Below are positions 2,568-39,276 of a DNA stretch of 44,581 nucleotides, piece after piece (the first letter of the stretch is position 1; each line of letters opens with the position of its first letter). A program made the position numbers and the translations under genes. The notes beneath the pieces are model-generated. The model saw only the letters and a program-made list of their open reading frames with translations, made no database searches and was not told where the DNA came from. This DNA comes from a virus, in IMG/VR virus record IMGVR_UViG_3300031963_011114, positions 1 through 44,581 of that record; one strand, written 5' to 3'.

Positions 2568-3262
2568 CAATATTAACGATTGCAACTGATAAATATATTT
2601 CATTTTTAGAACCATTGCACAGAAGTATATTTTTAAAGTTTCTACCAGATCACGATAAAACTTTATTTGTATTTACAGATAAAGATATAAATTATATAAA
2701 TACAAACACTATTAAAATCAATTGTTTACCATGGCCAATTACCACTTTAATGAGATTTTTTTATTTTAATAGTATATCAAGTCTATTACAAACATTTGAT
2801 TATATTTATTATATTGATTGCGATATGTTGGTACATACCACTATCACAGAAGAAATATTACCCGTTAATAATGAAATTGTTGCGGCAAAACACTTTTATT
2901 TAGAAAATTCTACCGGAACATATGAAACAAATATAAATTCAACCGCATATGTAGAAGTTACGGATATGCTATATGGAAAATATTGTCAGGCTTGTTTTTT
3001 TGGATCGAATGCACAATCTTTTATTAAAATGACTATGGAATTGAATGAAAATATTAATAAAGATTTAAAAAATAATTATATCGCTATATGGCATGACGAG
3101 TCTCATTTTAATAAATACATTTTAAATAATCCTTGCAAATTATTACATTCAGGATATACACATCCTCCATTTATTTATGAAAAGGAGAATAAAAATCCAG
3201 TAAAATTATTGCATTTGAATGCACATGCTACTGGTATTAAAAATATTAATATTATAGGATAG
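2555..3262 (+). CDS. Glycosyltransferase family 6 (ABO blood-group transferase-like)
   Basis: The 235-residue protein matches GT6, the family of ABO transferases and alpha-1,3-galactosyltransferase. Visible marks are IAILTIATDKY at 4-14, an FVFTD strand at 38-42, YYIDCDML at 85-92 with DCD as the metal-binding DxD, YCQACFFGS at 143-151 (in GT6 usually a YYQGxxFGG-like run), and the diagnostic WHDESHFNKY at 179-188. The family adds GalNAc or Gal in alpha-1,3 linkage with retention. Like bacterial members it lacks the membrane anchor and stem of animal enzymes and is essentially the bare catalytic domain. Many bacterial GT6 proteins have NxN instead of DxD, so the DxD form here is notable. The start overlaps the GT8 gene, which suggests coupled translation. 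Confidence 0.9.
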   Translation: MAKIAILTIATDKYISFLEPLHRSIFLKFLPDHDKTLFVFTDKDINYINTNTIKINCLPWPITTLMRFFYFNSISSLLQTFDYIYYIDCDMLVHTTITEEILPVNNEIVAAKHFYLENSTGTYETNINSTAYVEVTDMLYGKYCQACFFGSNAQSFIKMTMELNENINKDLKNNYIAIWHDESHFNKYILNNPCKLLHSGYTHPPFIYEKENKNPVKLLHLNAHATGIKNINIIG

Positions 3263-19346: not shown

Positions 19347-20060
19347 ATGAAAATTGAAGTATTAAAAAACGAAACATATAATAATGTTGCCGCGTTGCCA
19401 GACGCGGCAACCGAACGATCTACTGGTTATGATATTGTTGCAACTAGTGATCCTGAAATAGTAGGTAAACTACACGGAGAATCAAAAAATGTATATGAAA
19501 GTATAGATTACATTCAGTACAAAACTAATCTTCGAATTGCTGTTCAAAAAGATAACGTATGGACTGGAGGTACATCAAGTCCATTAAATATTGATTACGA
19601 TGTATTGGCTATGCCTCGTAGTAGTGTTAGCAAATACAATCTTGTACTTGCAAATGGTATTGGATTAATTGATGCGGATTATCGTGGCGAAATTCTTGTA
19701 CGTTTCAAATATATTTGGCAACCAGAAGATTATCTGATTAACACTAAACTTGCAAATGATGGTGCGCCTTTGTATCAATATGTTGCAGGAAAACCTAATC
19801 TTGATAAGATCTACAAGAAAGGTGACAAAATTTGTCAATTGAAAATTACCAAAGTTGAACATGCTGAGTTTTATTTGGTGGATGCATTAGATAAAACACA
19901 ACGTGGCGAAGGTGGTTTTGGCAGCACTGATGTAACATCTACTCCAATTGTTCCCGATGAAACATTGGTTGATATGATTAAAAATTACAAAAAAAATCCT
20001 GTGTATACTCCAGAAAAGAAGTATAGTGATTTAATGAAAGAAAGAGAAAATAATCTATGA
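19347..20060 (+). CDS. dut: dUTP diphosphatase (trimeric type)
   Basis: The 237-residue enzyme hydrolyses dUTP to dUMP and pyrophosphate, keeping uracil out of DNA and feeding dTMP synthesis. All five family motifs are visible in order: STGYDI (25-30), PRSS (90-93), NGIGLIDADYRG (103-114, with the catalytic Asp), GDKICQL (159-165) and the C-terminal RGEGGFGST (186-194). It is longer than usual (about 150), with inserts between motifs 1 and 2 and between 3 and 4 and a 40-residue tail after motif 5. The stop overlaps the next glycosyltransferase as ATGA, so a nucleotide-pool gene is embedded in a glycan operon. Confidence 0.95.
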   Translation: MKIEVLKNETYNNVAALPDAATERSTGYDIVATSDPEIVGKLHGESKNVYESIDYIQYKTNLRIAVQKDNVWTGGTSSPLNIDYDVLAMPRSSVSKYNLVLANGIGLIDADYRGEILVRFKYIWQPEDYLINTKLANDGAPLYQYVAGKPNLDKIYKKGDKICQLKITKVEHAEFYLVDALDKTQRGEGGFGSTDVTSTPIVPDETLVDMIKNYKKNPVYTPEKKYSDLMKERENNL

Positions 20061-21919: not shown

Positions 21920-22594
21920 ATGTCATTACCATTTGTATCATATTTAGTAACATGCAAGAATGAAGGTATGCAAATAAAACCTTTATTGGAACGTCTTTTT
22001 AAATACAAAGACGACGGCGAATGTATAATACTTGATGATTATAGTGATGATGCCGCCACTGTTCAAATATTGCAAGACGCAGTAAATACAGGTGGCGGCT
22101 TTTTTCAGTTACATAAACATGCGCTAAATAAAAACTATAGCGAACATAAAAATTATGGTAAATCATTGTGTAAAGGAAAATACATATTCCAAATTGATGC
22201 TGATGAATTACCATCTATATTTTTATTGGAAAACATCAAACTTATATTAGACACAAATCCTGATATAGATTTATATTGGATTCCTCGTATTAATGATTTT
22301 ATAGGTGTAAATCCAGATAATGCAAAACAATGGGGTTGGAGATTAACTCCATTTGAAAACAGATTGATTGTTAATTGGCCAGATCCGCAAGGGCGTCTTT
22401 TTAAAAATGTTTCATATATGAAATGGGAGCGTAGATTGCATGAAAAAATTGAAGGTGCAAAAACATATAGCCACTTGCCATATGAATACGAATTTGCATT
22501 ACATCACAATAAAACTATTGAAAAACAAATTGCGACCAATTTGAAATATAATGCAATTTTTTCACAAGAAGAAAATTTTGGATTTAAATTATAA
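21920..22594 (+). CDS. Glycosyltransferase family 2
   Basis: The 224-residue protein (from MSLPFVSYLVTCKNEG; ATG 21920 just past the previous stop, TAATATG junction) is a GT-A, GT2-type enzyme. VSYLVTCKNEGMQIKPLLERL is the first strand-helix, GECIILDDYSDD carries the first Asp pair, GKYIFQIDADELPS is the DAD metal motif (about 92-100), and WERRLHEKIEGA near 178 is the late acceptor-site helix typical of this subgroup. An upstream in-frame ATG at 21848 would overlap the methyltransferase by 70 bases and is unlikely. Confidence 0.88.
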   Translation: MSLPFVSYLVTCKNEGMQIKPLLERLFKYKDDGECIILDDYSDDAATVQILQDAVNTGGGFFQLHKHALNKNYSEHKNYGKSLCKGKYIFQIDADELPSIFLLENIKLILDTNPDIDLYWIPRINDFIGVNPDNAKQWGWRLTPFENRLIVNWPDPQGRLFKNVSYMKWERRLHEKIEGAKTYSHLPYEYEFALHHNKTIEKQIATNLKYNAIFSQEENFGFKL

Positions 22595-22595
22595 T

Positions 22596-24458
22596 ATGAA
22601 TATTGTTATACCGTTAGGTGGAAAAGGAGAAAGATTCAAATCTGAAGACTACCATTTTCCAAAAATATTAACAAATGTCTTGGGAAAGCCAATCATTACA
22701 TGGGTCATTGATTCGTTAAATATTTCAACTGATGATTGTGTTACTATTATATATAATTATATTTTAGATCATTATAACTTTCAAGACATTCTTCAAAAAG
22801 AATATAAAAATATAAAGTTTAATTTCATCAAGTTGCCGTATCAAACTTCTGGACCTGTGGAAACAATTTTGTACGGATTGTCTAAACTACCCGACCATAT
22901 TTTGGATGAAAAAATAATTATTCATGATGGAGATTCATTTATCAAAAACAACAAATTTGATAGAGATTCTTCAAATAATGAAATTTATTATACAATCGAT
23001 AAGACACCAACTCCACTATTCAGTTATATTAAACTAAACGAAAATCAAATTATTGATATCAAAGAAAAAGTAAAGATTTCAGACAACGCAAATATTGGTT
23101 GTTATGTATTTAAAAATGCGAAATTATTTCAATCATACGCAATGAAATGTGATCAGACATTGAACGAAATTTACATTTCACATGTATATCAAAAGATGAT
23201 TGAAGATAAACAATATGTTGTCGGAAAATATATTGAAAAAAATAATTATGTATGTTTGGGCACTCCATTACAAGTAATGGATTTTTGCAGCCAAAATTCT
23301 ACACAAAAACAATTACGCTTTTGTTTTGATTTGGATAATACATTAGTTACATATCCTCAAAAAACAGATGATTATACAACGGTTGAGCCAATACAAAAAA
23401 ATATTGACTTTCTTAATCATTTGAAAAACCAAGGTCATTATATTATAATTTACACGGCACGGCGAATGAGAACTTATAGTGGAAATGTGTCTAAAATTTT
23501 AAAGGACGTGGGAATTATTACTTTTAATACACTAGAAAAATATAACATACAGTACGATGAATTATGTTTTGGAAAGCCGCATGCAGATTTTTATATTGAT
23601 GATTTAGCAATCAATGCCCGTGCAAATCTTGAAAAATCTACCGGATTTTACATTAATTCAGTTACTCCTCGTTCTTATAATCAAATTCAAGTTAAAGAAA
23701 ATAGCATTGTTAAAACATCAACAAAATCGTTGAGTGGTGAAATTTATTATTACAAAAATATACCAAATATAGTTTCACATCTATTTCCAAAGTTAATCTC
23801 AACAAATGGTGAAAACGAATTAGAAATTGAAAAGATTGATGGAACATTGTTTTCTACAATGTATGCTCACAAAGAGCTTACAACCACTCATATCGATTTG
23901 TTATTCAAATCACTAAAGCAACTACACTCAATTGTTCCAGATCAGTTTAACAACAATATTTATGATAATTATTACAATAAACTGATATCCAGATTTGATA
24001 ATTATAATTACACTAAATTTAAAAATTCAAACATTGTTTTCAATTCTCTTAAAGAAAAACTTTTTAATTATGAAAAAATGAATGGAGGTAATTTATCATT
24101 AATTCATGGAGATTGTGTATTTTCAAATATATTTGTAAAAAATAATAGTTTACAATTTATAGATATGCGCGGAAAGTTAGGAAATACATATACAATTTAC
24201 GGCGATTCTTTTTATGATTATGCAAAAATATATCAATCTCTAATTGGATATGATTTTATTTTAAATTCAAAACCAATATCTTTTTCATATTGTTCTCCAT
24301 TAATTTCTTATTTTGAAAAGTGTTTTGTAGAGTTGCATGGAACAGAACAATTAAAGCATTTGAAAGCATTGACGGCGAGTTTATTATTCACATTAATACC
24401 ACTGCATAATGATGCAAAGTGTGAAGATTATTACAATTTAATACATTATTTAATATGA
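22596..24458 (+). CDS. Three-domain sugar activator: nucleotidyltransferase + HAD phosphatase + APH-like kinase
   Basis: The 620-residue protein joins three activities usually encoded separately. Residues 1 to about 230 are an NTP-transferase (GGKGERF 8-14; HDGD 110-113). Residues about 240-350 are a HAD phosphatase (CFDLDNTLV 243-251 with both catalytic Asp; IIYTARR 284-290; DFYIDDLA 331-338). Residues about 360-620 are an aminoglycoside/choline kinase-like domain (H504-G-D506 with N511; D523 in FIDMR as metal Asp). Together they could phosphorylate a sugar at C1, remove another phosphate and attach a nucleotide, in the manner of the separate heptose enzymes HddA, GmhB and HddC. Choline- or amidate-type groups are an alternative. 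The start is at a TAATATG junction; the stop overlaps the next gene as ATGA. Confidence 0.85.
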   Translation: MNIVIPLGGKGERFKSEDYHFPKILTNVLGKPIITWVIDSLNISTDDCVTIIYNYILDHYNFQDILQKEYKNIKFNFIKLPYQTSGPVETILYGLSKLPDHILDEKIIIHDGDSFIKNNKFDRDSSNNEIYYTIDKTPTPLFSYIKLNENQIIDIKEKVKISDNANIGCYVFKNAKLFQSYAMKCDQTLNEIYISHVYQKMIEDKQYVVGKYIEKNNYVCLGTPLQVMDFCSQNSTQKQLRFCFDLDNTLVTYPQKTDDYTTVEPIQKNIDFLNHLKNQGHYIIIYTARRMRTYSGNVSKILKDVGIITFNTLEKYNIQYDELCFGKPHADFYIDDLAINARANLEKSTGFYINSVTPRSYNQIQVKENSIVKTSTKSLSGEIYYYKNIPNIVSHLFPKLISTNGENELEIEKIDGTLFSTMYAHKELTTTHIDLLFKSLKQLHSIVPDQFNNNIYDNYYNKLISRFDNYNYTKFKNSNIVFNSLKEKLFNYEKMNGGNLSLIHGDCVFSNIFVKNNSLQFIDMRGKLGNTYTIYGDSFYDYAKIYQSLIGYDFILNSKPISFSYCSPLISYFEKCFVELHGTEQLKHLKALTASLLFTLIPLHNDAKCEDYYNLIHYLI

Positions 24459-25498
24459 GTTCACGTATTCTTTTTTTCGATATTCCCGAATCAACTATAA
24501 ACAAAAACCGTGAGTTTTGCATTGAATATAAGAATATTTATATTTTGCACCCGAGAGGTGAGGACTGTAATTTAGAAGTATTTCATAATCACAAGAAAGT
24601 AATAGGTGGCATCGACAAACATACACAAATGATTGGTGATCATAGATTACTATATGACAACAATATTGTTAATAGTAATGAATCCTATGACGTGTTAGTT
24701 GATGAACCGTCGTTTTTATTACAAGATCCTGCTGGACTAAATTATATTCATTTTTTCTTTTGTTTTTTTGGTAAATGTCATTATTACGATGAATTGATAA
24801 AACAGACGAATATTAAATTATACATTCCCGCTGAGTTATATCATAATACAGGCCGCGCAACTTTTATAAAAGAGTGGATGCAATTGTATTATCCAAATAT
24901 TAATATTTATGTTATCGACCATGATAAACGATATAAATTTAAAAATTTAATAGTACCAAATTCATTTTATAATTTTCCACAACCATTTGGATATAATATT
25001 ATTTATAAAATGATGAGAAAGGTTATAGATAATATTCCAATTAATGAAAATTATTTAAATAAATCTGTGTATATTTCAAGACAGGATACTATTAAACGTG
25101 GATGGTATCATAATAGAATATTAATAAATGAACTTGATCTTATCGATGGCTTTAAACGTAACAATTATGATATTATTGAGTTAATGGATTTTAATATGGC
25201 ACAAAAAATTCAAATTTTTAAATCATATAAAACAATAGTACAACAATCAAGTGCATCCGTGATCGGTATTCTATTTTCAAGTAAGCATACAACACATTAT
25301 TTGATAGAACATCCAAAAATGAATTGGTGGCTTACTCCAAAATGTAAAGAATTTGCTTCATTAAGCAAATCAAATCTCGTAACAATTGAAGATTTCGGAG
25401 AGATTATATCAAGTGAAAAACAAACAGACGATAATAATTATCCTTGGAAAATAAATGAAATTGAATATATGATTGAAAATATAAAAAATACGATATAA
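24455..25498 (+). CDS. Glycosyltransferase family 61-like protein
   Basis: In this 347-residue protein the C-terminal half fits GT61 (DUF563): VYISRQDTIKRGWYHNRILINE (about 199-220) is the I-S-R ... R-x-x-x-N-E block. FKRNNYDIIELMDFNMAQKIQIFKSYKTIVQQSSASVIGILF (about 226-267) is the signature run in which the glycan-transfer loop ends in a Ser/Ala/Gly-rich helix. The N-terminal half is divergent. GT61 includes xylosyl- and arabinosyltransferases; the donor here is unknown. It starts in an ATGA overlap with the three-domain activator, so sugar activation and transfer are translationally linked. It has no membrane helix. Confidence 0.7.
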   Translation: MSSRILFFDIPESTINKNREFCIEYKNIYILHPRGEDCNLEVFHNHKKVIGGIDKHTQMIGDHRLLYDNNIVNSNESYDVLVDEPSFLLQDPAGLNYIHFFFCFFGKCHYYDELIKQTNIKLYIPAELYHNTGRATFIKEWMQLYYPNINIYVIDHDKRYKFKNLIVPNSFYNFPQPFGYNIIYKMMRKVIDNIPINENYLNKSVYISRQDTIKRGWYHNRILINELDLIDGFKRNNYDIIELMDFNMAQKIQIFKSYKTIVQQSSASVIGILFSSKHTTHYLIEHPKMNWWLTPKCKEFASLSKSNLVTIEDFGEIISSEKQTDDNNYPWKINEIEYMIENIKNTI

Positions 25499-25507
25499 AT
25501 TTATAGA

Positions 25508-25536
25508 TTGACATATTGAATCTAACGTATTATATT
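25508..25536 (+). promoter_or_regulatory. Promoter of the dideoxy-sugar operon, possibly leaderless
   Basis: TTGACA (25508-25513), 17-base spacer, TATATT (25531-25536), then 6 bases to ATG 25543. This is the best-scoring sigma70-type promoter inside the plus-strand glycan block. It would let the sugar genes from 25543 onward be expressed independently. Transcription would start at or next to the ATG. Confidence 0.65.
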
Positions 25537-25542
25537 ATGGAA

Positions 25543-26853
25543 ATGATAGAAATTTTAAATAAAATTAAAGAATATATTAATGAAAAACACGCATCTAAAA
25601 AATGGGAAGCTGGTAAAGATTGGGTGCAATATGCAGGACCATTTTTCGACGAGAAAGAATATATTGCTGCAATTAATTCATTGTTGAATGAATGGTTAGT
25701 ATTAGGGCAAGATGCAATCACATTTGAAAATAAATTTCCATTATTAGTAGGTAAAGAATATGGAATATTAACAAATAGTGGAAGTAGTTCTAATTTATTG
25801 ATGATGTTAGCAATGACATCAAAAAGATTATACAATTTACCAAAAGGAACAAAAGTAATTACCCCAATTGCTGGGTTTCCTACAACATTAAATCCAATTT
25901 TTCAAGTTGGATTCGAACCTTTATTTGTTGATATTGACTTGGACACATTAAATTTAAATCTTGATCAAGTAGAAGAACAAGCAAAAAAAGGCGCAAAAGT
26001 TATAACATTTGCACACGTTTTAGGTAATCCGCCGAACATGAATCGATTGATGGAAATCATAAAACAATATAATTTAATTTTGTTAGAGGATTGTTGCGAT
26101 GCACTTGGATCAACATATAATAACAAGCCACTTGGCAGTTTCGGTGAGTTAGCTAGTTGTAGTTTTTATCCAGCGCATCACATGACGATGGGTGAAGGTG
26201 GATTTGTAGCATGTAATACAAAAATACAAGAAATAGTTACACGTAGTTTTCGTGAATGGGGTCGCGGATGTTATTGTGTGGGCTTAAAAGCAAATAAACT
26301 AAAAAACGGAAGCTGTGGAAATCGATTTAGTAATTGGCTACCAGAATTACCAGATGAAATATTTGATCACAAATATGTGTATGACGAAATTGGATATAAT
26401 TTAAAGCCAATTGAATTACAAGCATCAATTGGTTTAGAACAAATTAAAAAGCTGCCGGAAATACATGCTAGACGTAAATCAAACTTTAAACAATTGTTTG
26501 ATATATTCAAACCATACGAAGAGTTTTTCATTCTACCAAAAGCAACAGAACATGCAGATCCTAGTTGGTTTGCATTTCCATTGACAATTAAAAACAATAA
26601 TAATTTTAAAAGAAAAGATATTATTAATTATTTGGAAGATAACAAAATTCAAACCCGCCCATATTTTGCGGGTAATATTATGCTACAACCAGCTTATTCT
26701 GGAATTATGGATAAACAGGATGTTATTAACAAATATCCTAATGCTAGAAAAGTCACGACGGATAGTTTCTTTTTAGGAACAAGTCCAGTAATATCGTCTG
26801 AACAAATTATGTATATTCAAACGATTATTGAAAAATTTTTTAAAACAATATAA
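25543..26853 (+). CDS. rfbH: NDP-4-keto-6-deoxyhexose 3-dehydratase (RfbH/E1 type, PLP and Fe-S)
   Basis: The protein belongs to the DegT/DnrJ/EryC1/StrS fold but is a dehydratase, not an aminotransferase. In FYPAHHMTMGEGG (about 208-220) the PLP-binding Lys is replaced by His, as in RfbH (E1) and ColD. C243, C245 and C258 with C184 or C185 match the extra cysteines that hold the 2Fe-2S cluster of E1. The segment from DHKYVYDEIGYNLK to LEQIKKLPE is also characteristic of E1. E1 removes the C3 hydroxyl of CDP-4-keto-6-deoxyglucose on the way to 3,6-dideoxyhexoses. A partner reductase (E3) is not seen and may come from the host. ATG 25543 is preferred to ATG 25537 because of the promoter; the difference is two residues. 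Confidence 0.88.
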   Translation: MIEILNKIKEYINEKHASKKWEAGKDWVQYAGPFFDEKEYIAAINSLLNEWLVLGQDAITFENKFPLLVGKEYGILTNSGSSSNLLMMLAMTSKRLYNLPKGTKVITPIAGFPTTLNPIFQVGFEPLFVDIDLDTLNLNLDQVEEQAKKGAKVITFAHVLGNPPNMNRLMEIIKQYNLILLEDCCDALGSTYNNKPLGSFGELASCSFYPAHHMTMGEGGFVACNTKIQEIVTRSFREWGRGCYCVGLKANKLKNGSCGNRFSNWLPELPDEIFDHKYVYDEIGYNLKPIELQASIGLEQIKKLPEIHARRKSNFKQLFDIFKPYEEFFILPKATEHADPSWFAFPLTIKNNNNFKRKDIINYLEDNKIQTRPYFAGNIMLQPAYSGIMDKQDVINKYPNARKVTTDSFFLGTSPVISSEQIMYIQTIIEKFFKTI

Positions 26854-26854
26854 T

Positions 26855-27814
26855 ATGTCTAAAATAGTTTATATAACAGGATGTTTAGGATTTATCGGTT
26901 CATATGTAACCCGTGCATGTTTAAATAAAGGATGGTATGTAAAAGGAATTGATAAAATTACATATGCAGCTGATCCAAATTTAATTAAAGAATTCGAATC
27001 AACAGACCGTTTTCATTTTGAAAAACAAGATATCTGTAATATAGATCGTCTAATTGACTGTGATTATTTTATTAATGTTGCCGCAGAAACGCACGTTGAT
27101 AATTCAATACGTAAAAGCGACGATTTCATTCATTCAAATATTGATGGAGTATATAATATTCTCGAATTGTTAAAGCACTATAAAAGTACTGGTCATATTA
27201 CTCCTACATTAATTCAATTCAGCACAGATGAAGTATATGGAGATATTGTTGATGGAGAACATATTGAAACAGATATTTTAAAACCGAGCAATCCATATAG
27301 TGCTACAAAAGCAGCGGCTGACCAATTAATAATAGCATGGGCACGAACATATGGAATTCCATATGTTATTGTAAGACCTACGAATAATTATGGTATCGGT
27401 CAATATGTTGAAAAATTGATTCCGAAGACATGTAAGTTTTTAAAGCTTAATAGAAAAATTCCTTTGCATAATAATGGAACACCAATTCGTAATTGGTTAC
27501 ATGCAAAAGATACAGCAGACGGTATTATTACAATCATAGACGCTGGTGTAAAAAATGAAATTTATAATATTGCTGGTGGATTTGAACAATCTAATATAAT
27601 AACGGTTGAAAAAATTATAACTGCGTATTTTCAAGAATTTCAACCTAATTATAAAGAGGAATACATCGATTTTTGTTTTCATCGCGCAGGTCAGGATGTA
27701 AGATACGCGTTAAATGATTTTAAATTACGTAATTTAGGATGGACACCAAAATGTAATTTTGATGTAGAAATAAAAGATATTGTATCTTATTATAGAAATA
27801 ATTTTATTTGGTAA
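26855..27814 (+). CDS. NDP-glucose 4,6-dehydratase (RmlB-like SDR)
   Basis: The 319-residue extended SDR has ITGCLGFIGS (7-16, NAD-binding Gly motif), NVAAETHVDNSI (74-85), STDEVYG (123-129, with the T-D-E active-site triad characteristic of 4,6-dehydratases) and YSATK (148-152, Tyr/Lys pair). IRNWLHAKDTADGI comes later. It should convert an NDP-glucose to the 4-keto-6-deoxy form that the 3-dehydratase just upstream would use. The motifs fit dTDP-glucose dehydratase better than the CDP-glucose enzyme (RfbG), so the nucleotide of the pathway is uncertain. It starts at a TAATATG junction without a Shine-Dalgarno site. Confidence 0.85.
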   Translation: MSKIVYITGCLGFIGSYVTRACLNKGWYVKGIDKITYAADPNLIKEFESTDRFHFEKQDICNIDRLIDCDYFINVAAETHVDNSIRKSDDFIHSNIDGVYNILELLKHYKSTGHITPTLIQFSTDEVYGDIVDGEHIETDILKPSNPYSATKAAADQLIIAWARTYGIPYVIVRPTNNYGIGQYVEKLIPKTCKFLKLNRKIPLHNNGTPIRNWLHAKDTADGIITIIDAGVKNEIYNIAGGFEQSNIITVEKIITAYFQEFQPNYKEEYIDFCFHRAGQDVRYALNDFKLRNLGWTPKCNFDVEIKDIVSYYRNNFIW

Positions 27815-27823
27815 TTATAATTT

Positions 27824-28840
27824 ATGAGAGTATCAGACTATATAGCACAACGTTTGGCAAAAATTGGAATTAAATACGTATATGGATTAATGGGTGGTGG
27901 AGCAGCAGGGCTTAATGACGGATTTATTAAAGAAAAACAAATAAGTTATATTTGTTTTCATAATGAACAAGGAGCAGGACATGCTGCCGTTGGTGAGAGT
28001 AAAGTAACAAACAAATTATCAGTAGTTAATCCTACAACCGGATGTGGTGGAACCAATTGTATTACATCATTGTTGGATGCATGGCAAGATAGCTTACCCG
28101 TTTTATTTTTATCTGGAAATGTTAAAAAAACACAAACTAGTTTATTTATTAACAGAGAAAAAAACGTATCTATTAGAAAATATGGAATTCAAGAACATAA
28201 TATCATTGATACAGTCAAGTCATTGACAAAATATGCAATAATGGTTGAAAATGCAACTGATGTTCCATACGAATTAGATAAAGCTATTCATATCGCTTTA
28301 TCGGGACGTATGGGACCAGTGTGGTTAGATATACCGAGCGATATTCAACACGCGGAAATTGACATAACACAATGCAAATCATTTATACCAGAGTCAACAT
28401 TGAACAACTCGTCAATTACCATAAAAAATTTACTTCCAATAATTGAATCGTATGATCGTCCACTTATTTTAGCAGGATATGGTATAACATTAAGCAATTC
28501 TAAACAATTATTTAAACGTTTCGTAGAAAAGCATCAAATTCCTACAGTTACTTCATATTTGGGAATTGATATTTTAGGTCATAGACATCCATTACATTTA
28601 GGAACAATCGGTATTAAAGGCAGCCGAGCAGGTAATTTTGCAATACAAAATTGTAATTTATTGCTTATTTTAGGATGCTCTCTTAATTGCTCTCACACTG
28701 GATATGATGAAAAATTATTTTCCCCACATTCATATAAAATCATGGTCGATATTGATGATAACGAACACAGAAAGAACACAATAAAAATTGATAAGTATAT
28801 TAATGCCGATTTAAATTATTTTTTAAACTATGACAAATAA
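27824..28840 (+). CDS. Split ThDP-dependent enzyme, Pyr and central domains
   Basis: The 338-residue protein corresponds to the first two of three domains of acetolactate synthase-like enzymes. The Pyr domain has GIKYVYGLMGGGA and the cofactor-activating Glu as E48 in CFHNEQGAGHAA. NPTTGCGGTNCITSLLDAWQDSLPVLFLSG matches the family's G-P-G-x-x-N region, and ISGQ-like residues follow. The central domain runs from about 190 (RPLILAGYGI) to 335 (LLLILGCSL, then VDIDDNE). The PP domain is in the next gene, which overlaps it by 11 bases in the +1 frame. In sugar clusters such enzymes (YerE type) add a two-carbon unit from pyruvate to a ketosugar. FAD use cannot be judged. Confidence 0.82.
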   Translation: MRVSDYIAQRLAKIGIKYVYGLMGGGAAGLNDGFIKEKQISYICFHNEQGAGHAAVGESKVTNKLSVVNPTTGCGGTNCITSLLDAWQDSLPVLFLSGNVKKTQTSLFINREKNVSIRKYGIQEHNIIDTVKSLTKYAIMVENATDVPYELDKAIHIALSGRMGPVWLDIPSDIQHAEIDITQCKSFIPESTLNNSSITIKNLLPIIESYDRPLILAGYGITLSNSKQLFKRFVEKHQIPTVTSYLGIDILGHRHPLHLGTIGIKGSRAGNFAIQNCNLLLILGCSLNCSHTGYDEKLFSPHSYKIMVDIDDNEHRKNTIKIDKYINADLNYFLNYDK

Positions 28841-29585
28841 AGAAAAATGGATAGAAAAATGTAAATATTGGAAAAATAAATGGCCTATTTACGAAGAATC
28901 TTATAAAGACGATACAAATGGTATAAATTTGTATACCTTTATTGAAACATTAAATGATGTCATGTCGGCGTCTGATACAATTGTGTCCGATGCGGGAAGT
29001 GCAATTTATGTGCCTAGTCAAAATTTAAAAATGATTGATAATCAGATATTTGTATTATCTGGCGCACAGGCAGATATGGGATTTGCATTACCAGCATCTA
29101 TCGGAGTAAAGTTAGCAGATCCTACAAAAAACGTTGTAGTGATTACTGGAGATGGAAGTTTCAATACCAATATACAAGAATTAGCCACAATTAAATATTT
29201 AAATTTGCCGATCAAAATATTTGTCTGGAATAATAGCGGTTATTTAAGCATCAAAAACACACAGAAAAAGTTTTATGAAGGGCGTGTATATGGTACTGAT
29301 AGCAATCACGGATTATGGTTTCCTGAATTAAAAAATGTTGCAGAAACATATGAAATGGAGTATAGTAAAATTACTTCAAATCAAGAATTGAAAAAAAATT
29401 TAAAAAATATCTTAAATAAAAAAACAGGCATTATATGCGAGGTAATATGTAAAGAAGAGCAAGAAATTGTGCCTACATTAATGCTTAAGAAAGATAAAAA
29501 TACAGGACAATCAATACAATGTGGATTGGACGATATGTATCCGTTTTTGTCAGATGAAGAACTAAAAGCTGAAAAATATTTATGA
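28830..29585 (+). CDS. Split ThDP-dependent enzyme, PP domain
   Basis: The 251-residue protein is the pyrophosphate-binding domain missing from the previous gene. GFALPASIGVKLADP (84-98) leads to ITGDGSFN (105-112), and NNSGY (134-138) closes the Mg/ThDP motif GDG-x24-NN. An N-terminal stretch of about 40 residues forms a linker that may dock on the partner. Together the two chains total 589 residues, the usual size of a one-chain enzyme, and the cut falls cleanly between domains. Start codon ATG 28830 lies inside the end of the first gene, indicating coupled translation. Natural two-chain ThDP enzymes exist, for example sulfopyruvate decarboxylase. Confidence 0.85.
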   Translation: MTNKEKWIEKCKYWKNKWPIYEESYKDDTNGINLYTFIETLNDVMSASDTIVSDAGSAIYVPSQNLKMIDNQIFVLSGAQADMGFALPASIGVKLADPTKNVVVITGDGSFNTNIQELATIKYLNLPIKIFVWNNSGYLSIKNTQKKFYEGRVYGTDSNHGLWFPELKNVAETYEMEYSKITSNQELKKNLKNILNKKTGIICEVICKEEQEIVPTLMLKKDKNTGQSIQCGLDDMYPFLSDEELKAEKYL

Positions 29586-30511
29586 AAAAATCAATTATTA
29601 ATTTTAACAAAATGAAACAAGCAGGTGAACCTATTACATGGGTTACTGCCTATAGCTATCCATTTGCAAATGCAGTTGAAAATGCTGGTATCGAAATGAT
29701 ATTGGTTGGAGACTCTGGTGGAATGGTAGAATTGGGTTATCAAACAACTAATCCAGTAACTATGGATGAAATGATTAGTTTTGCTAAAGCAGTTCGTCGC
29801 GGTGCTCCAAATACATTTATTGTCGGAGACATGCCACAGGGAGCATATGAAATTTCAAAAGAAGAAGCTGTAAAAAATGCGATCCGATTTGCAAAAGAAG
29901 CCACATGTGATGCAATCAAATTGGAAGGCGGAAAACGTGTTGCTGATAAAATTAAAGCAATTGTTGATGCAGGAATTCTTGTTATCGGACATTTAGGATT
30001 AACTCCTCAAAGTACAGTGTCGTTTGGAGGATACCGAGTTCAAGGAAAAACAGTGGAAAGCTTTGAAGAAATGATGGAAGATAGTATAGAAATTGAAAAA
30101 GCTGGATGTTCTATGTTATTATTAGAAGCTGTTCCAGATGCAGTTGCACAACAAATTGCTAAAAAGTTAAAAATTCCAGTTATGGGAATTGGTGCTGGTA
30201 AAAATGTAGATGGTCAATTAATTATTATGCATGATTTGGCCGGATTCTATCCAAATTTTAGACCATGGTTTGCAAAATGCTATATACCAGAAGCATTAAA
30301 TACTTTACAAACAGAATTAGCAACTCAACAAAATGTCAAGAAATATGGAATCGATACACGCAATGATGGTGTATTGCGACTAATGCAAATTGCCTTGAAA
30401 AATTACTATAACGAGGTAAAGGGAAAAGTATATCCATCCGAAGAATATATTTATCCTATTAAACTAGAAGAATTAGCATCGATAAAAAAATCACTTTATT
30501 GGACTGAATGA
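29582..30511 (+). CDS. panB: PanB-like ketopantoate hydroxymethyltransferase
   Basis: The 309-residue protein aligns over its whole TIM barrel with PanB, which transfers a hydroxymethyl group from methylene-tetrahydrofolate to a 2-keto acid. VTAYSYPFANAVENAG (21-36), VGDSGGM with metal Asp D44, GDMP with D83, KLEGG with K113 and E115, GHLGLTPQS with H137, and LEAVP with the catalytic E182 are all kept. A C-terminal extension of about 40 residues is extra. Canonical PanB serves pantothenate and CoA synthesis. Here it sits between a ThDP enzyme and an SDR in a sugar operon with ATGA overlaps on both sides, so a role in building a branched sugar or acyl group is as likely. Catalysis of some aldol-type transfer seems safe. 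Confidence 0.88.
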   Translation: MKKSIINFNKMKQAGEPITWVTAYSYPFANAVENAGIEMILVGDSGGMVELGYQTTNPVTMDEMISFAKAVRRGAPNTFIVGDMPQGAYEISKEEAVKNAIRFAKEATCDAIKLEGGKRVADKIKAIVDAGILVIGHLGLTPQSTVSFGGYRVQGKTVESFEEMMEDSIEIEKAGCSMLLLEAVPDAVAQQIAKKLKIPVMGIGAGKNVDGQLIIMHDLAGFYPNFRPWFAKCYIPEALNTLQTELATQQNVKKYGIDTRNDGVLRLMQIALKNYYNEVKGKVYPSEEYIYPIKLEELASIKKSLYWTE

Positions 30512-31335
30512 ATGTTTTAATAACAGGAGCTAACGGATTTGTTGGATCGAATATAATAAATATGCTATCCAACAAATTTTGTTTTTTTAGAGGAACTAGA
30601 CAAACAATTGATTTGTATTCAATTTCTAGTATTGAAAAATATCTAAATGAAAATAAAATTGACAGTATAATTCATTGTGCAATAGAAGGAGGCAATCGAA
30701 CAGCAGTCGATCCCGCCTCAGTGTTTTATAACAATTTATTGATGTATGAAAATCTTATTCATTTTAGATATAGGGTAAAACATTTTATTAATATTGCATC
30801 GGGTGCTGAATTTGATCGCCGCAATGATATTAATCAATATAATGAAGAGCAACTGTTTAGTAATGTGCCGACTGACTTTTATGGACTTTCAAAAAACATT
30901 ATAGCAAAAAGCGTACTTCAAAATAATGGAACAAATTTAAGATTATTTGGCTGTTTTAATTATAATGAACTTCAATCAAGATTCATAAAAAATAACATCA
31001 ATGCATATATTAATAATACGGAAATGATTATCCATAAAGATAGATATATGGATTTTATTTACACAGACGATTTATCAAAAATCGTCGAATTTATATTAAA
31101 TCAGTCAATTTATACAAATGACATTAATATGGTATATGAAAATAAATACAAATTATCTGAATTAGCAACTTATATTAATAACTTGTCAGGTAAAAAAATT
31201 AAAATTAATGTGTTGAATACAGGCATGGATTTATCTTATACAGGCGACGGAACAAAACTAAAATCTTTAAATTTGCAATTGACTGGGTTATTTAATGGAA
31301 TAAATAATTGTTATACAAAATTATATGAATATTAA
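30508..31335 (+). CDS. NAD(P)-dependent sugar epimerase/reductase (extended SDR)
   Basis: The 275-residue SDR begins MNVLITGANGFVGSN (the GxxGxxG NAD(P) motif at 7-13), has the strand IIHCAIEGGNR near 54-64, NIASGAEFD near 94 and the catalytic YGLSK (Y-x3-K) near 126. It resembles GDP-fucose synthase and RmlD-type 4-ketoreductases more than 4-epimerases. In this operon it is the natural candidate to reduce the keto group left after the 3-dehydratase and ThDP steps, comparable to YerF in yersiniose synthesis. The start is in an ATGA overlap with PanB; the end overlaps the next gene by 11 bases. Confidence 0.8.
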   Translation: MNVLITGANGFVGSNIINMLSNKFCFFRGTRQTIDLYSISSIEKYLNENKIDSIIHCAIEGGNRTAVDPASVFYNNLLMYENLIHFRYRVKHFINIASGAEFDRRNDINQYNEEQLFSNVPTDFYGLSKNIIAKSVLQNNGTNLRLFGCFNYNELQSRFIKNNINAYINNTEMIIHKDRYMDFIYTDDLSKIVEFILNQSIYTNDINMVYENKYKLSELATYINNLSGKKIKINVLNTGMDLSYTGDGTKLKSLNLQLTGLFNGINNCYTKLYEY

Positions 31336-32269
31336 AATTATTACACATTTCATGCCTTGGGAAATTGATCATGCTCTATTACTTGCTGATAAATTAAAAA
31401 AAAGCCTCTATTACATAGAAAATACAGACCATATTTACATAGATATGGTATTAAATTTGTCTTCTAGTATTATAGACTGGGACAGTTCAATATTAAAAAA
31501 AGATTTTTTTATAGAAAAATACAATGTAATCATTGAAATGTTAAAAACTAAAACAACAATTAGATCTAAAATTTATGATGGGAATGCTGTATATGGCCAT
31601 CTTGATTTACAAAAAGAAGCCATTGAATCTCATATAGACGCATACGTTTATATTTGTCCAGATATTAGTTTTCATGAACATTTGATTTTTTATTTGATAG
31701 CTGCTGCAAAAACAATTACTGATGATTATTATTTGATTACTCCACAGATATTTAAATGCTGGGATAATAGCTGGGATGAATTAGTACATCCGGCGTTTTT
31801 AAATACAATACCAACATCCAAATGTATAGATATTGACATACACGAAATAGAACATCAGTTTGTAAATTTAACGGCAGAACCTGCAATCAGAAAATTAAAT
31901 AATTTTAAATTTGCAGGATGGTTTGATTTATATAACAAAAATTTTATTGAAAAGTTTGTGCCTATTTTGGATGAATGGCATGGATACGGACCATGGGATT
32001 TATACTCATTACATGTATGTCAATATGCAAAAGACAACGGTGTAAATGTATGCGAATATTTATTAGAAAATCAATTGATATGGTTTTACGACACCGGAGT
32101 ATTAAAAAATGACATTGAATACGGTGGATATGGCAAATTAAAAACGTCTTATAAAAAATTTATTAAAACAAAAATAGATGCTAATAAACAACGTGCTGAA
32201 ATTGAAAAGAATATCGGCGAGTATTTAACACGTTGGGTATCTTATGCAAAACAAAATAAAATTTTATGA
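31325..32269 (+). CDS. Putative GT-A-type glycosyltransferase, family not identified
   Basis: The 314-residue protein starts [24 protein letters not shown], a strand-loop-helix opening like GT-A enzymes. Later come [21 protein letters not shown] near 105-125 and [19 protein letters not shown] near 138-156, then [30 protein letters not shown] near 197-226, which resembles the acceptor-side helix of phage and cyanobacterial GT2-like proteins. There is no clean DxD; CPDIS or CWDNSWDE may serve. It is Trp- and Tyr-rich, has no membrane helix and overlaps both neighbours. I infer a glycosyltransferase from context and pattern but cannot exclude another sugar-modifying enzyme. Confidence 0.5.
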
Positions 32270-33405
32270 ATACACATCGTATTAGAAGTGTGGGAAAACA
32301 CACATACGGACATCAAAATATTGAAATTTATTATTGGGGAGAAAATACATGGCTTGATATAGGCGATTATTGTTCAATCTCAGGGCATATTTTAGTATAT
32401 TTAGGAGGAAATCATCGAATCGATTGGGCTACTACATATCCATTTGGACATGTAGCTACTGATACATTTAAAAAGTATAACGGACAAGGACATCCGAGTA
32501 CCAAAGGAAATGTAAAGATAGGCAACGATGTTTGGATAGGAACTCATGTAACAATTATGAGTGGAGTTACAATTGGAGATGGCGCATGTATCGCATGTAA
32601 TTCGGTAGTAACTAAAGATGTTCCACCATATACAGTTGTTGGTGGAAATCCTGCCAAACTAATAAAGTACAGATTTGAAAAAGATATAATTGATAAATTA
32701 TTAAAATACAAATGGTGGGAATTGGAAGAAAAATATGTGGATGAAATATCACCATTATTGTGCTCTAATAATTTTAGCTTGCTATTTAAAACTATAGATA
32801 ACATAAAAAACAAAACTATGTATAATTTAGAAAATATAATTAATACGATTTATTCGACTCCATCTGACATCAACGAACATATTCCAACTCTCATAAAATA
32901 CGCATCCGAGTGTAGTCATATTACAGAAATGGGTGTCCGTGCAGTACAATCGACATGGGCATTTTTAGGGTCTGCTCCAAAAAAATTAATCAGTTACGAT
33001 TTACACAATCCTTCAAGATGGGGAGGAAACATTCAAAATGTTTTTGACGTTGCCGCTTATTATAATCTTGATTTTACATTTGTAGAAGCTGATGTACTAA
33101 AAATAGACATTGAACAAACTGATTTGTTGTTTCTTGATACATGGCATACGTATGAACAAGTTAAAAATGAACTTGCATTACATGCAAATAAAGTAAATAA
33201 ATATATTGTTTTTCATGACACGACAACATATGCATTTAGAGACGAACCATTGACATCAGAACACTCAGAAACTCTTTCAAACATATCAGGGCGTGGAATT
33301 TGGCCAGCAATACAAGAATTTTTACAAAATAATAGCGACACATGGGAATTATTAGAAAAATTTGATAATAACAACGGATTAACAATTATTCAGAGAAAAA
33401 AATAA
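32266..33405 (+). CDS. Fusion: left-handed beta-helix O-acyltransferase + SAM methyltransferase
   Basis: Residues 1 to about 185 are a hexapeptide-repeat (LbH) acyltransferase of the CatB/Vat type. [29 protein letters not shown] contains the catalytic His loop (GNH), [49 protein letters not shown] is the coil series and closing P-x-x-V-x-x-G-x-P-A signature, and KWWELEEK follows. Residues from about 186 form a class I methyltransferase: [15 protein letters not shown] (motif I), [27 protein letters not shown] (motif IV with metal-binding His) and [10 protein letters not shown]. One chain would both acylate (probably acetylate, via acyl-CoA) and methylate, perhaps the same terminal sugar. The start overlaps the previous gene as ATGA. 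Confidence 0.85.
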
Positions 33406-37097: not shown

Positions 37098-37374
37098 TAT
37101 TGGAGAATTTAAAACATTTTTGACTGATAATCAATTGGATAATATTGATGCCAGTGTTGCTGATTTTGTTGCATGTGTTATACAATATAGTTTATTTTGT
37201 AGTTGTAAAAAAACTCAAAAAAATCAAAAATATGAAATTTGTAATCAGCAATATATGCATATTGTATTGCAAATATTGCCTTCTAAAAAAGATTTAATAT
37301 TTTCTAAAATAACACAAGATTCAATTGAATTTTATTATAATCAAAATTATTATATAGCTACACTGTCACGTTAA
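37084..37374 (+). CDS. Small protein of unknown function
   Basis: The 96-residue protein (MRINNIGEFKTFLTDNQ and onward) is charged and contains a SLFCSCKK cysteine pair near 36-43 and a Tyr-rich C-terminus. I do not recognise it. It is translationally linked to the membrane protein before it. Its stop overlaps the stop of the convergent DruA-like gene by 9 bases, so it closes the plus-strand unit with no terminator visible. Confidence 0.6.
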   Translation: MRINNIGEFKTFLTDNQLDNIDASVADFVACVIQYSLFCSCKKTQKNQKYEICNQQYMHIVLQILPSKKDLIFSKITQDSIEFYYNQNYYIATLSR

Positions 37375-38100
37375 TAATATATCTCTCCAATTTTTTACCA
37401 ATGGTTTTATAAAAACCAGCTTCTTTTGTGTGTTTTGTACGTTGTACCCATACTTTTCGCTGTTATTGACATAAAACGCATACTGCCGCATACATTCTTC
37501 TGGATTCTCTCTGGCTAATCTACCACGTTCAGTGTTTTCTTTCTTCCACATAATCAAAGGTATCTTTTTTATTGAATTACCTTCAGTCATACCCAATTCG
37601 ATCCAGTTGTCAGCTTTATAACACGCTCCATTTCGATTAGAATGCCCTATATATTGGTTTTCTCTGGTGGGTAGTATAAAAGTCTCCAAAAGCACCAAAT
37701 CATCGTTATATTTTGTTTTCCATGCGTCAACACCTATTGTTCGTAATGATTTGAGAGTCATGCTGGCAGCATTAGCTATTGTGATATTGTTTTTGATTAA
37801 ACAAAACCGACTATTATTTGCAATTTGATGCAAATGTTTCATTTTAAGATCATTGTTCCATCCAATATATTCTTCTCTACATTTCAATGCCAATGTGCCG
37901 CTGGTCAATCCTATACAACCAATAAAATTGCCGCTTACACTCTCATAAACGAGAAATGACAAGCGGCGAGTTGGACTATCTTTATATTTTACGTAACTAT
38001 GATGCTGATCAATAGTATCTCTAAATAATTTAAATTCAGACGATTGTTTGCATTCAATCAGCTTTATTGGATAATCTTGTGTTGTATTGACTTGAGACAT
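37366..38100 (-). CDS. DruA-like DUF4338 protein
   Basis: The 244-residue protein fits the DUF4338 family, to which DruA of the Druantia anti-phage system belongs. The order of conserved blocks is visible: DTIDQHHSYV near 29-38, LSFLVYESVSGNFIGCIGLTSG near 47-68, EYIGWNNDLKMKHLHQIANNSRFCLI near 77-102, IANAASMTLKSL near 107-118, WKTKYNDDLVLLETFI near 126-141 and GACYKADNWIELGMTEG near 158-174. The fold is thought to be acyltransferase-like; the biochemical activity is not established. No other Druantia gene is adjacent. It starts inside the last 37 bases of the gp1-like gene, so the two are expressed together. A role in interference with host defence or in superinfection exclusion is speculation. 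Confidence 0.78.
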   Translation of the reverse strand: MSQVNTTQDYPIKLIECKQSSEFKLFRDTIDQHHSYVKYKDSPTRRLSFLVYESVSGNFIGCIGLTSGTLALKCREEYIGWNNDLKMKHLHQIANNSRFCLIKNNITIANAASMTLKSLRTIGVDAWKTKYNDDLVLLETFILPTRENQYIGHSNRNGACYKADNWIELGMTEGNSIKKIPLIMWKKENTERGRLARENPEECMRQYAFYVNNSEKYGYNVQNTQKKLVFIKPLVKNWRDILLT

Positions 38101-38765
38101 TCTATAACAGTGTTATTTAGATATTGATTATCTAACAACTCTGCATAAGTCAGATTTTTGCCAACACCAATATCTTCCCACTGTAATAAATAGTCTGCCT
38201 TTTTCTGTAACTTAGGATCATTTAATGCTTCATGACTATTTGCTGGATCTGTAAATATTTTAGTATTGTTTACAGTTTGTCCGCTTACTTTTACTACGCG
38301 TCCATCAGTTGGAAATCCATATGTGTATTTGCTTATATGAATAAATGGTCCGTTCTTTTCTTTACGAATAAAATCCACTTCGTCATTCTCATAAAAGTCA
38401 TATCGAATATCACTAATAATGGCAACATCAATAGGTGGAGTGCCCCATGCAAATTCTTTTCCAATTCTGGTATTTAACTTATCAATCCAATAGCGACCAT
38501 TGCTTTGCTTTCGTTTAGCATCTCCATACCAAACCAACATATCACGAAATATCTTTTTTTCATCAGTATTTTCTGTAAAGACATCAATATTGAATTTATC
38601 CCAAATGAATTGCCGACAATCCATTTTCAATTCATATGCCAGCGCATAATGCTGTGCATGTAAATTATATTGTTGTTTGAGTTGTTTAACCAGCAAATCA
38701 CAAAACAGATTTTTACCTGCTCTTGCAACGCCGCCTACACCTATAACGATTTGTTTATTATTCAT
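38064..38765 (-). CDS. 1: Deoxynucleoside monophosphate kinase (gp1-like)
   Basis: The 233-residue protein is a P-loop dNMP kinase of the T4 gp1 type, which phosphorylates dNMPs to dNDPs for phage DNA synthesis. GVGGVARAGKNLFCDLL (9-25) contains the Walker A loop GxxxxGKN/S. HAQHYALAYELKMDCRQFIWDKF (about 36-58) corresponds to the substrate-binding region, VAIISDIRYDFYENDEVDFI (about 112-131) to the D-x-R strand, and a K-K-A-D-Y segment occurs near 190. Length is close to T4 gp1 (241). It overlaps its upstream neighbour by 8 bases and the DruA-like gene by 37. Confidence 0.82.
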   Translation of the reverse strand: MNNKQIVIGVGGVARAGKNLFCDLLVKQLKQQYNLHAQHYALAYELKMDCRQFIWDKFNIDVFTENTDEKKIFRDMLVWYGDAKRKQSNGRYWIDKLNTRIGKEFAWGTPPIDVAIISDIRYDFYENDEVDFIRKEKNGPFIHISKYTYGFPTDGRVVKVSGQTVNNTKIFTDPANSHEALNDPKLQKKADYLLQWEDIGVGKNLTYAELLDNQYLNNTVIECLKSIQHKIIQ

Positions 38766-39276
38766 CTTTTCCTTCTAACATTTTTTCAATTTGAGTTTCG
38801 CTAAATCCAACACTACTACACAAATTGATTAAATTAGTCAATTGTGTTTCATCACGAAAGAATGAAGTGCAATAATCATATGCATCACTTTTACTGATTT
38901 TATAGTAAGATGCGATAATCTCAATGAGCTTTTTACTATATTTTGGCTTTGATGATTTTATCCATTTGCAAAATCTTGTCGATTTTGGAGTAACATCGCA
39001 GCATACTTTATAAAATGCATTTGGAGGCAATATATCTAAATATTTAGATATATAACTAACTCCTTCAATTGCCGTTTGATCCATACTTAAACCCATCAAA
39101 ATAACATATTTGTTAAATGTTTTTTGATCAGCTTCAGTTAGCGATTGATAATAGTCGGGCGCCTTGGATTCACGGATGTGTTTGATATGATCAAACACCG
39201 TCTTGGGTTTCACCAAATTCTTTGGTTGAATCAAATCCAGCGGATTTGAGTCTTGGTTCGTTGAGCTTTTTGGCAT
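38758..39276 (-). CDS. 62: Clamp-loader small subunit (gp62-like)
   Basis: The 172-residue protein resembles T4 gp62 (187 residues), the non-ATPase subunit of the gp44/62 clamp loader. The stretch FYKVCCDVTPKSTRFCKWIK (about 89-108) parallels the gp62 segment ending in a K-R-x-x-K-W motif, and LIEIIASYYKISKSDAYDY (about 117-135) parallels the following helix in which residues precede a N-x-x-x-A pattern. The first 40 residues are polar and Pro-rich. Unlike T4, it lies 27 kb from the gp44 gene. The start overlaps the membrane-anchored gene upstream by 86 bases; no better start is visible. Confidence 0.68.
   Translation of the reverse strand: MPKSSTNQDSNPLDLIQPKNLVKPKTVFDHIKHIRESKAPDYYQSLTEADQKTFNKYVILMGLSMDQTAIEGVSYISKYLDILPPNAFYKVCCDVTPKSTRFCKWIKSSKPKYSKKLIEIIASYYKISKSDAYDYCTSFFRDETQLTNLINLCSSVGFSETQIEKMLEGKDE

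Follow-up and report, generated by a model that had tools for sequence, protein, structure and literature searches.

A candidate phage gene set for carbon-branched 3,6-dideoxy sugars, with exchangeable partners beside its ThDP enzyme

Related pathways and the phage locus

The routes to yersiniose and erwiniose, branched sugars of bacterial lipopolysaccharide, include 3-dehydration by an E1-type enzyme. In both, a thiamine diphosphate (ThDP)-dependent carboligase (YerE or ErwE) decarboxylates a 2-oxo acid and joins the remainder to a 3,6-dideoxy-4-ketosugar, and a reductase follows (PMC12247030; this and the other papers cited here by PMC number are cited from partial texts). Here we describe a comparable gene set in a 44,581-nt stretch of viral DNA (IMG/VR record IMGVR_UViG_3300031963_011114, positions 1 to 44,581; hereafter the window), whose source, judged by its gene content, is a T4-like phage. 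We consider it rather probable that the product of this operon is a 3,6-dideoxyhexose, linked to a nucleotide and bearing a hydroxylated carbon branch at C-4. The chemistry is of a known kind, that of the yersiniose and erwiniose pathways; unlike these, the phage set is borne by a T4-like phage, has a 4,6-dehydratase of deoxythymidine diphosphate (dTDP) type and a ThDP enzyme in two chains, adjoins a gene for a PanB-like hydroxymethyltransferase, and is accompanied by no E3 reductase gene that we could find.

The individual enzymes have known relatives as well. The YerE-like ThDP enzyme JanthE of Janthinobacterium (PDB 8rph) is, of all solved structures, the one that the phage ThDP enzymes match best, and it shares with them a GYLxI...TQ region, but the window enzyme is split and has the motif GDG. 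E1 (PDB 3bcx, CDP-6-deoxy-L-threo-D-glycero-4-hexulose-3-dehydrase, where CDP is cytidine diphosphate) aligns over its full length with the window protein, which differs in a 5-residue insert before the last Fe-S cysteine, in the dTDP type of its partner dehydratase and in having no detected E3. Ketopantoate hydroxymethyltransferase (KPHMT, or PanB; PDB 1oy0, 1m3u) has metal and catalytic residues in common with the phage form, which passes the family cut-off, whereas the phage PanBs carry extra residues near the C-terminus, have Gly for Leu47 in 14 of 19 cases and lack panC alongside. Two-chain ThDP enzymes, of a type that we take to go by the names AviB1/AviB2, occur also in pathways to orthosomycin antibiotics. 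The orthosomycin enzyme EvdU5/EvdS3 is likewise proposed to branch a 4-ketosugar, although its type resembles pyruvate dehydrogenase and the window enzyme is a split member of the decarboxylase superfamily (PMC10338323).

A first-pass annotation of the window had named a 4,6-dehydratase, an RfbH/E1-type enzyme, a two-chain ThDP enzyme, a PanB-like enzyme and a short-chain dehydrogenase/reductase (SDR) in one run, and all are present as named. The six genes are all open, lie on the + strand and overlap or nearly do so:

25543-26853, + strand: RfbH/E1-like NDP-4-keto-6-deoxyhexose 3-dehydratase (NDP, nucleoside diphosphate; PRK15407, 3bcx alignment, motif table)
26828-27814, + strand: RmlB-like (dTDP-type) 4,6-dehydratase (TIGR01181, 295 bits; PDB 2hun, 229 bits)
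27824-28840, + strand: YerE/JanthE-like ThDP enzyme, first chain, N and middle domains (PF02776, PF00205, trees)
28830-29585, + strand: YerE/JanthE-like ThDP enzyme, second chain, C domain (PF02775)
29582-30511, + strand: PanB-like hydroxymethyltransferase, proposed donor-making enzyme (TIGR00222, catalytic residues, linkage)
30508-31335, + strand: extended SDR, proposed reductase of the branch ketone (PF01370, 5e-20; YxxxK present)

The RfbH-like gene has alternative starts at ATG 25537 and TTG 25516, and an inner ATG at 26855 is a possible alternative start of the RmlB-like gene. Chance grouping of these genes is excluded, because the set recurs across phage loci.

We propose that the RmlB-like enzyme, whose family is clear, would dehydrate dTDP-glucose of the host (the nucleotide is presumed) to a 4-keto-6-deoxy sugar, from which the E1-like enzyme would remove the 3-hydroxyl with electrons from a host reductase; the active-site residues of the latter enzyme are in place, and its activity and partner are predicted. 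PanB, with its catalytic residues kept and its linkage established, would move a hydroxymethyl (C1) group to a small 2-oxo acid, most simply pyruvate, to give 4-hydroxy-2-oxobutanoate as the putative product. The two-chain ThDP enzyme, again of clear family, would decarboxylate this presumed donor and add a 3-hydroxypropanoyl group to the 4-ketone of the sugar, the SDR may then reduce the new side-chain ketone, and glycosyltransferases may put the sugar on a glycan, perhaps on a host surface glycan or a virion protein. The branch made by the window would be 4-C-(3-hydroxypropanoyl), then dihydroxypropyl, on a dTDP-3,6-dideoxyhexose. The first-pass annotation had likewise suggested a phage pathway to a 3,6-dideoxy, carbon-branched sugar, and the gene set supports it in this; the two-carbon branch that it assumed is probably wrong, in view of the linkage of PanB and its exchange for an aldolase, and the branch is probably a hydroxylated three-carbon one rather than the two-carbon acetyl of yersiniose.

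Partners of the ThDP gene in viral and bacterial loci

The window PanB passes the KPHMT equivalog model (TIGR00222, 284 bits against a cut-off of 207.6), and D45, S46, D84, K112, E114, H136 and E181, which we take to be the metal and catalytic residues of PanB, are conserved in all 19 full-length phage PanBs. Two scans of viral sequences, run with alignments that mixed phage and bacterial PanBs and each covering the best 80 of 121 PanB-coding stretches, together with earlier loci yielded 94 distinct viral PanB loci (told apart by the central 300 bases of the gene; part of the 121 may lie outside this set). A YerE-like ThDP gene lies within 2 kb of PanB in 93 of them and within 150 bases in 83, and in all 93 it scores higher to YerE-like queries than to IlvI. 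In the sole exception, L498, panC follows, so that this is a vitamin operon of the ordinary kind. A control scan whose queries were all bacterial PanBs, and whose reach was restricted by the two peptide patterns used, returned two viral loci, L498 and an already known contig. An RfbH-like gene (at least 100 bits) is found in 81 of the 94 loci, the panC-linked one included.

The phage PanBs form one group in a PanB tree with modest support (80), and the nearest cellular PanBs among the genomes searched, up to 55% identical, belong to the phylum Omnitrophota, that of the L130 genome. A bacterial glycan cluster as the source of PanB was considered and rejected, as only PanB itself matched in seven bacterial PanB neighbourhoods (12.8-19 kb) queried with the window operon proteins, JanthE and PanC.

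In L022 and similar phages, genes for an acetaldehyde dehydrogenase and a 4-hydroxy-2-oxovalerate aldolase follow directly after the ThDP gene, and both proteins of L022 and L026 pass equivalog cut-offs. Among 67 distinct viral loci with this aldolase (at least 150 bits), 62 have a YerE-like ThDP gene within 2 kb; four of the five misses are at or near a contig end, and the fifth, L403, has 6 kb upstream free of ThDP. PanB and the aldolase occur together in none of the viral loci examined. The partners found within 2.5 kb in 223 distinct viral ThDP loci were PanB (94), the aldolase (61), a dehydroquinate (DHQ)-synthase-like protein (17), a class I/II aminotransferase (10), an LdpA-like Fe-S protein (8), a cupin set (6), NeuB-like (4) and HMGL-like (1) proteins, with two labels in only 2 of the 223; this set was enriched for PanB and the aldolase by the way it was fetched, and its de-duplication and distance limit differ slightly from those of the 2-kb counts. 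In bacteria, the aldolase pair is present in 2 of 80 loci, L133 and, on the opposite strand, L135, and L120 holds a partial aldolase.

PanB and the aldolase would each provide a donor of the same kind by a route of its own, and both their shared slot and their mutual exclusion would then be explained. ErwE has a preference for donors that are 4-hydroxy-2-oxo acids; its described reaction joins one of these to CDP-4-keto-3,6-dideoxyglucose, and its assay used an analogue of that ketone (PMC12247030); JanthE takes 4-hydroxy-2-oxovalerate, with benzaldehyde as acceptor (PMC12188165); and E. coli PanB, using formaldehyde, converts several 2-oxo acids into 4-hydroxy-2-oxo acids (PMC10127515). Since PanB in viruses goes with this ThDP family and gives way elsewhere to another maker of 4-hydroxy-2-oxo acids, it is probably the donor-making enzyme and not a vitamin B5 gene or, as the first-pass annotation had it, an addition to an otherwise complete pathway.

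We regard as evenly poised the broader idea of a modular system in aquatic T4-like phages, in which a common core (RmlB-like, E1-like and YerE-like ThDP enzymes and an SDR) is combined with an exchangeable donor cassette that sets the branch length. The cassettes would be PanB for a one-carbon extension, acetaldehyde dehydrogenase and hydroxy-oxovalerate aldolase for a two-carbon one, and possibly a NeuB-like enzyme or an aminotransferase. A donor role for every neighbour of the ThDP gene was rejected as a universal rule, since the DHQ-synthase-like and LdpA-like partners do not fit it. The DHQ-synthase-like (sugar cyclase-like) gene, supported by Pfam matches beside the ThDP gene in L033 and L048, suggests a cyclitol or other acceptor in some members.

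Family assignments and genomic setting

The ThDP pair carries the TPP_enzyme_N, _M and _C domains, and its comparison with YerE in the first-pass annotation is borne out. A profile of 15 unsplit phage ThDP enzymes scores JanthE at 598 bits, 5ahk, which we take to be PpYerE, at 409 and E. coli acetohydroxyacid synthase (AHAS) I at 381. JanthE and 80 bacterial relatives group with the phage enzymes in trees, with IlvI, AHAS I and Gcl outside; 5ahk also falls outside the group, nearer to it than AHAS. These were quick trees with SH-aLRT (approximate likelihood-ratio) support only, and the YerE and ErwE sequences were left out of them. The AHAS model TIGR00118 gives 192 bits for the first chain (N and middle domains) and 127 for the second, both under its cut-off of 538, although splitting lowers each score. 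Tree and profile thus support a YerE/JanthE-like enzyme over an acetolactate synthase or a glyoxylate carboligase. The phage enzymes with which JanthE itself groups (support 100) have hydroxy-oxovalerate aldolase or, in two cases, an LdpA-like protein as linked partner, and they are apart from the subclade of the window. The second chain has a GDG ... NN motif, and GYLSI where JanthE has GYLMI; six phage enzymes carry CDG instead of GDG, a motif that has been called unique to JanthE (PMC12247030).

Most phage relatives are single chains of 575-612 residues, and others, like the window enzyme, are divided behind the middle domain (22 rows including the window, 18 of them distinct). The two-chain form recurs in phages and is therefore no sequencing slip. 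The chains overlap by 11 nt in the window, by 8-14 nt in its subclade and by 4 nt (ATGA), in the other register, in most other split enzymes. A programmed frameshift joining the chains was considered because of a U_UUA_AAC-like stretch at the window junction, and was ruled out: the second chain is in the +1 register here, and the ATGA junctions of most of the other split subclade are in the opposite one. Overlap lengths and registers thus indicate two genes. In one tree the split rows make up one side of an unsupported branch, and in the other the unsplit L042 and L077 fall inside them (support 97), so that the chain may have been split twice, or split once and later re-fused. In L188, a Bacteroidales metagenome-assembled genome, a ThDP enzyme is likewise found from 7998 as two frames of 366 and 213 residues, which may reflect a sequencing error. 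ThDP matches in an annotated phage collection number 45 records, many of which, judged by their names, resemble bacterial fragments.

The 25543 product passes the curated RfbH model (NCBIfam PRK15407, 467.3 bits, the cut-off being 423). Among solved structures E1 is its closest match (3bcx, 349 bits), with the best ColD-type chain at 193 and sugar aminotransferases also behind. The histidine by which E1 replaces the lysine that binds pyridoxal phosphate is present in the window and in 103 of 103 phage homologues of at least 300 bits, whereas all five distant bacterial DegT proteins have Lys in that column. The same 103 homologues keep four aligned cysteines (columns C194/C251/C253/C261, script numbering), which we take to be the Fe-S ligands; all 15 weaker phage homologues keep the histidine and one cysteine, with Arg or Lys at the next. 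Score and motif, which are the basis here in place of an RfbH tree, support placing the protein with E1 as the first-pass annotation did, and not with lysine-type aminotransferases.

That rfbH occurs in viruses is already known: published lists of viral genes include it (PMC11295528, PMC10653327), and rfbI, the gene for the reductase, appears in a virome table (PMC3877843). RfbH matches 72 annotated phage records, 17 of them over at least 80% of the query and 8 of those at 39-42% identity; in one of these records, Synechococcus phage S-H68, no ThDP match was found in the surrounding 21 kb. An LdpA-like 4Fe-4S protein adjoins or lies near the ThDP gene in seven loci (L020, L025, L029, L042, L056, L057 and L077), in six of which a partner of 126-131 residues follows it; the LdpA-like protein is a possible electron partner for the E1-like enzyme.

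The window dehydratase scores 295 bits on the dTDP-glucose model TIGR01181, under its cut-off of 365, and 68 on the CDP-glucose model TIGR02622, also under cut-off; two other phage dehydratases are alike (about 299 bits on the dTDP model). Of eight bacterial dehydratases tested from ThDP loci, three pass the CDP model and one the dTDP model. No RmlA (TIGR01207) over cut-off was found in 18 related virus records, and the 22551 protein of the window gives a weak nucleotidyltransferase match only. From the dehydratase scores and the failure to find RmlA we infer that the sugar nucleotide would be dTDP, supplied by the host as dTDP-glucose, in place of the CDP-linked substrate that the first-pass annotation had drawn from CDP-yersiniose.

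As to the source, the window has PHROG matches to polymerase, clamp-loader and ribonucleotide reductase proteins, of which we read the polymerase and the clamp loader as gp43 and gp44, and a match to the clamp loader A (gp62) model at 38761-39276. An IMG/VR record of 123,688 bases encodes the operon proteins at 100% identity and also carries the gp23 capsid protein; in two sets of related virus records, which include many fragments, gp23 was found in 12 of 36 and in 11 of 20. The nearest relative of the window polymerase among annotated phages is that of Microcystis phage Mel-JY01 (43.7%). The six genes lie inside a + strand run, mostly of glycan genes, from 22551 to about 36.7 kb, which also includes:

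22551-24458, + strand: nucleotidyltransferase-like (weak RmlA/GlmU likeness, far under cut-offs) and HAD phosphatase-like protein with a long C-terminal remainder
24455-25498, + strand: GT61-like glycosyltransferase, upstream in the same run (PF04577, 5e-10)
32266-33405, + strand: hexapeptide acetyltransferase-like part and a further C-terminal stretch of about 200 residues
33476-34471, + strand: second NAD-dependent epimerase/dehydratase (PF01370, 5e-39)

The first of these has relatives in L013, L027, L028, L033, L034, L091, L092 and L095. The operon had been placed behind its own promoter, and this we could not uphold: TTGACA-17-TATATT is present at 25508-25536, its -10 element abuts the ATG at 25537, and promoter-like sites in the region are at chance level (131 against 131.7 +/- 13.2 in shuffles), as are T4 late promoters.

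Elsewhere, a second glycan cluster at 0.2-10 kb holds GT6, GT8 and GT25 enzymes and several methyltransferases. GT6, a family otherwise best known from vertebrates, is represented at 2555-3262 on the + strand (PF03414, 1e-19). A DruA-like protein (Druantia defence component) is encoded beside gp62 at 37369-38100 on the - strand (PF14236, 2e-25), and a dUTPase match of the product of 19347-20060 (+ strand) is limited to residues 156-194 of 237.

Competing readings and meaning

Several observations weigh against the reading of PanB as donor maker for a sugar-branching operon. The closest ThDP sister of the window, L002 (70% identical), has no PanB, nor was PanB found in any of the 80 bacterial ThDP relatives within the stretch examined. 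None of the sought partners is present in 20 of the 223 viral ThDP loci, several of which are not at contig ends, and the DHQ-synthase-like partner of 17 loci (19 distinct ones with mixed labels) makes no 2-oxo acid. Sequence does not decide which substrate PanB would use. An E3-type reductase (PF00111, Fer2 domain), proposed earlier as a thing to look for, was found neither in the window record nor in 36 related virus records, most of them fragments. As neither this reductase nor RmlA was found in related records, the host would have to supply both electrons and dTDP-glucose.

A pathway closer to that of yersiniose, in which pyruvate provides the two-carbon acetyl group that the ThDP enzyme adds and the SDR reduces, while PanB comes in later or elsewhere, for example by hydroxymethylating the acetyl branch, seems to us unlikely, if far from absurd. 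YerE uses pyruvate (PMC12247030), the same kinds of enzyme stand in one gene run, and not only L002 but most split-chain relatives are without PanB; left unexplained are the tracking of the ThDP family by PanB in 93 of 94 viral loci and the presence in the same slot of a 4-hydroxy-2-oxo acid aldolase that never accompanies PanB. That the product is a different one, with the 3-deoxy sugar as one building block of a glycan and the ThDP/PanB pair contributing to another, we judge improbable. An RfbH-like gene (at least 100 bits) was found in 18 of 18 loci fetched with the ThDP N chain, and ThDP in 14 of 14 fetched with PanB and in 42 of 80 fetched with RfbH, each set including the near-identical 123.7-kb record; the 38 RfbH loci without a ThDP frame, many of them fragmentary, agree with two building blocks, as do the 4 of 14 PanB-fetched loci without a strong RfbH match (at least 300 bits), whereas the RfbH-like gene in 81 of 94 PanB loci and in 174 of the 223 ThDP loci speaks against them.

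It is very improbable, in our estimate, that the genes for PanB and the ThDP enzyme act as auxiliary metabolic genes by which the host is supplied with branched-chain amino acids and vitamin B5/coenzyme A. The window PanB does exceed the KPHMT equivalog cut-off, and pantoate transferase, the most abundant vitamin/cofactor gene in oxygen-minimum-zone viromes, has been read as vitamin B5 supply (PMC8940887). Against this, the ThDP enzyme is JanthE-like and not AHAS-like, PanC is present in 0 of 19 PanB-bearing virus records, a Pfam scan of 40 window proteins found no pantothenate or ordinary branched-chain amino acid gene besides PanB, and the neighbours are glycosyltransferases, RfbH and RmlB.

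As far as our searches show, what is new is that many phages carry the complete set, that its ThDP enzyme can come in two chains, and that a PanB cassette occurs and is exchanged for others; among the papers listed, mostly from openly available literature, none described the full pathway, or the link with PanB, for a phage. If PanB is indeed a donor maker in such a modular system, the panB genes of viruses that are now classed as auxiliary genes for vitamin B5 would be glycan genes, and the pantoate transferase of oxygen-minimum-zone viromes (PMC8940887) may mark glycan diversity rather than vitamin supply. Sugar enzymes that form carbon-carbon bonds would then join the known functions carried by phages, with visible variation in branch length, and would be useful for the study of virus-host recognition and as biocatalysts for tertiary alcohols.

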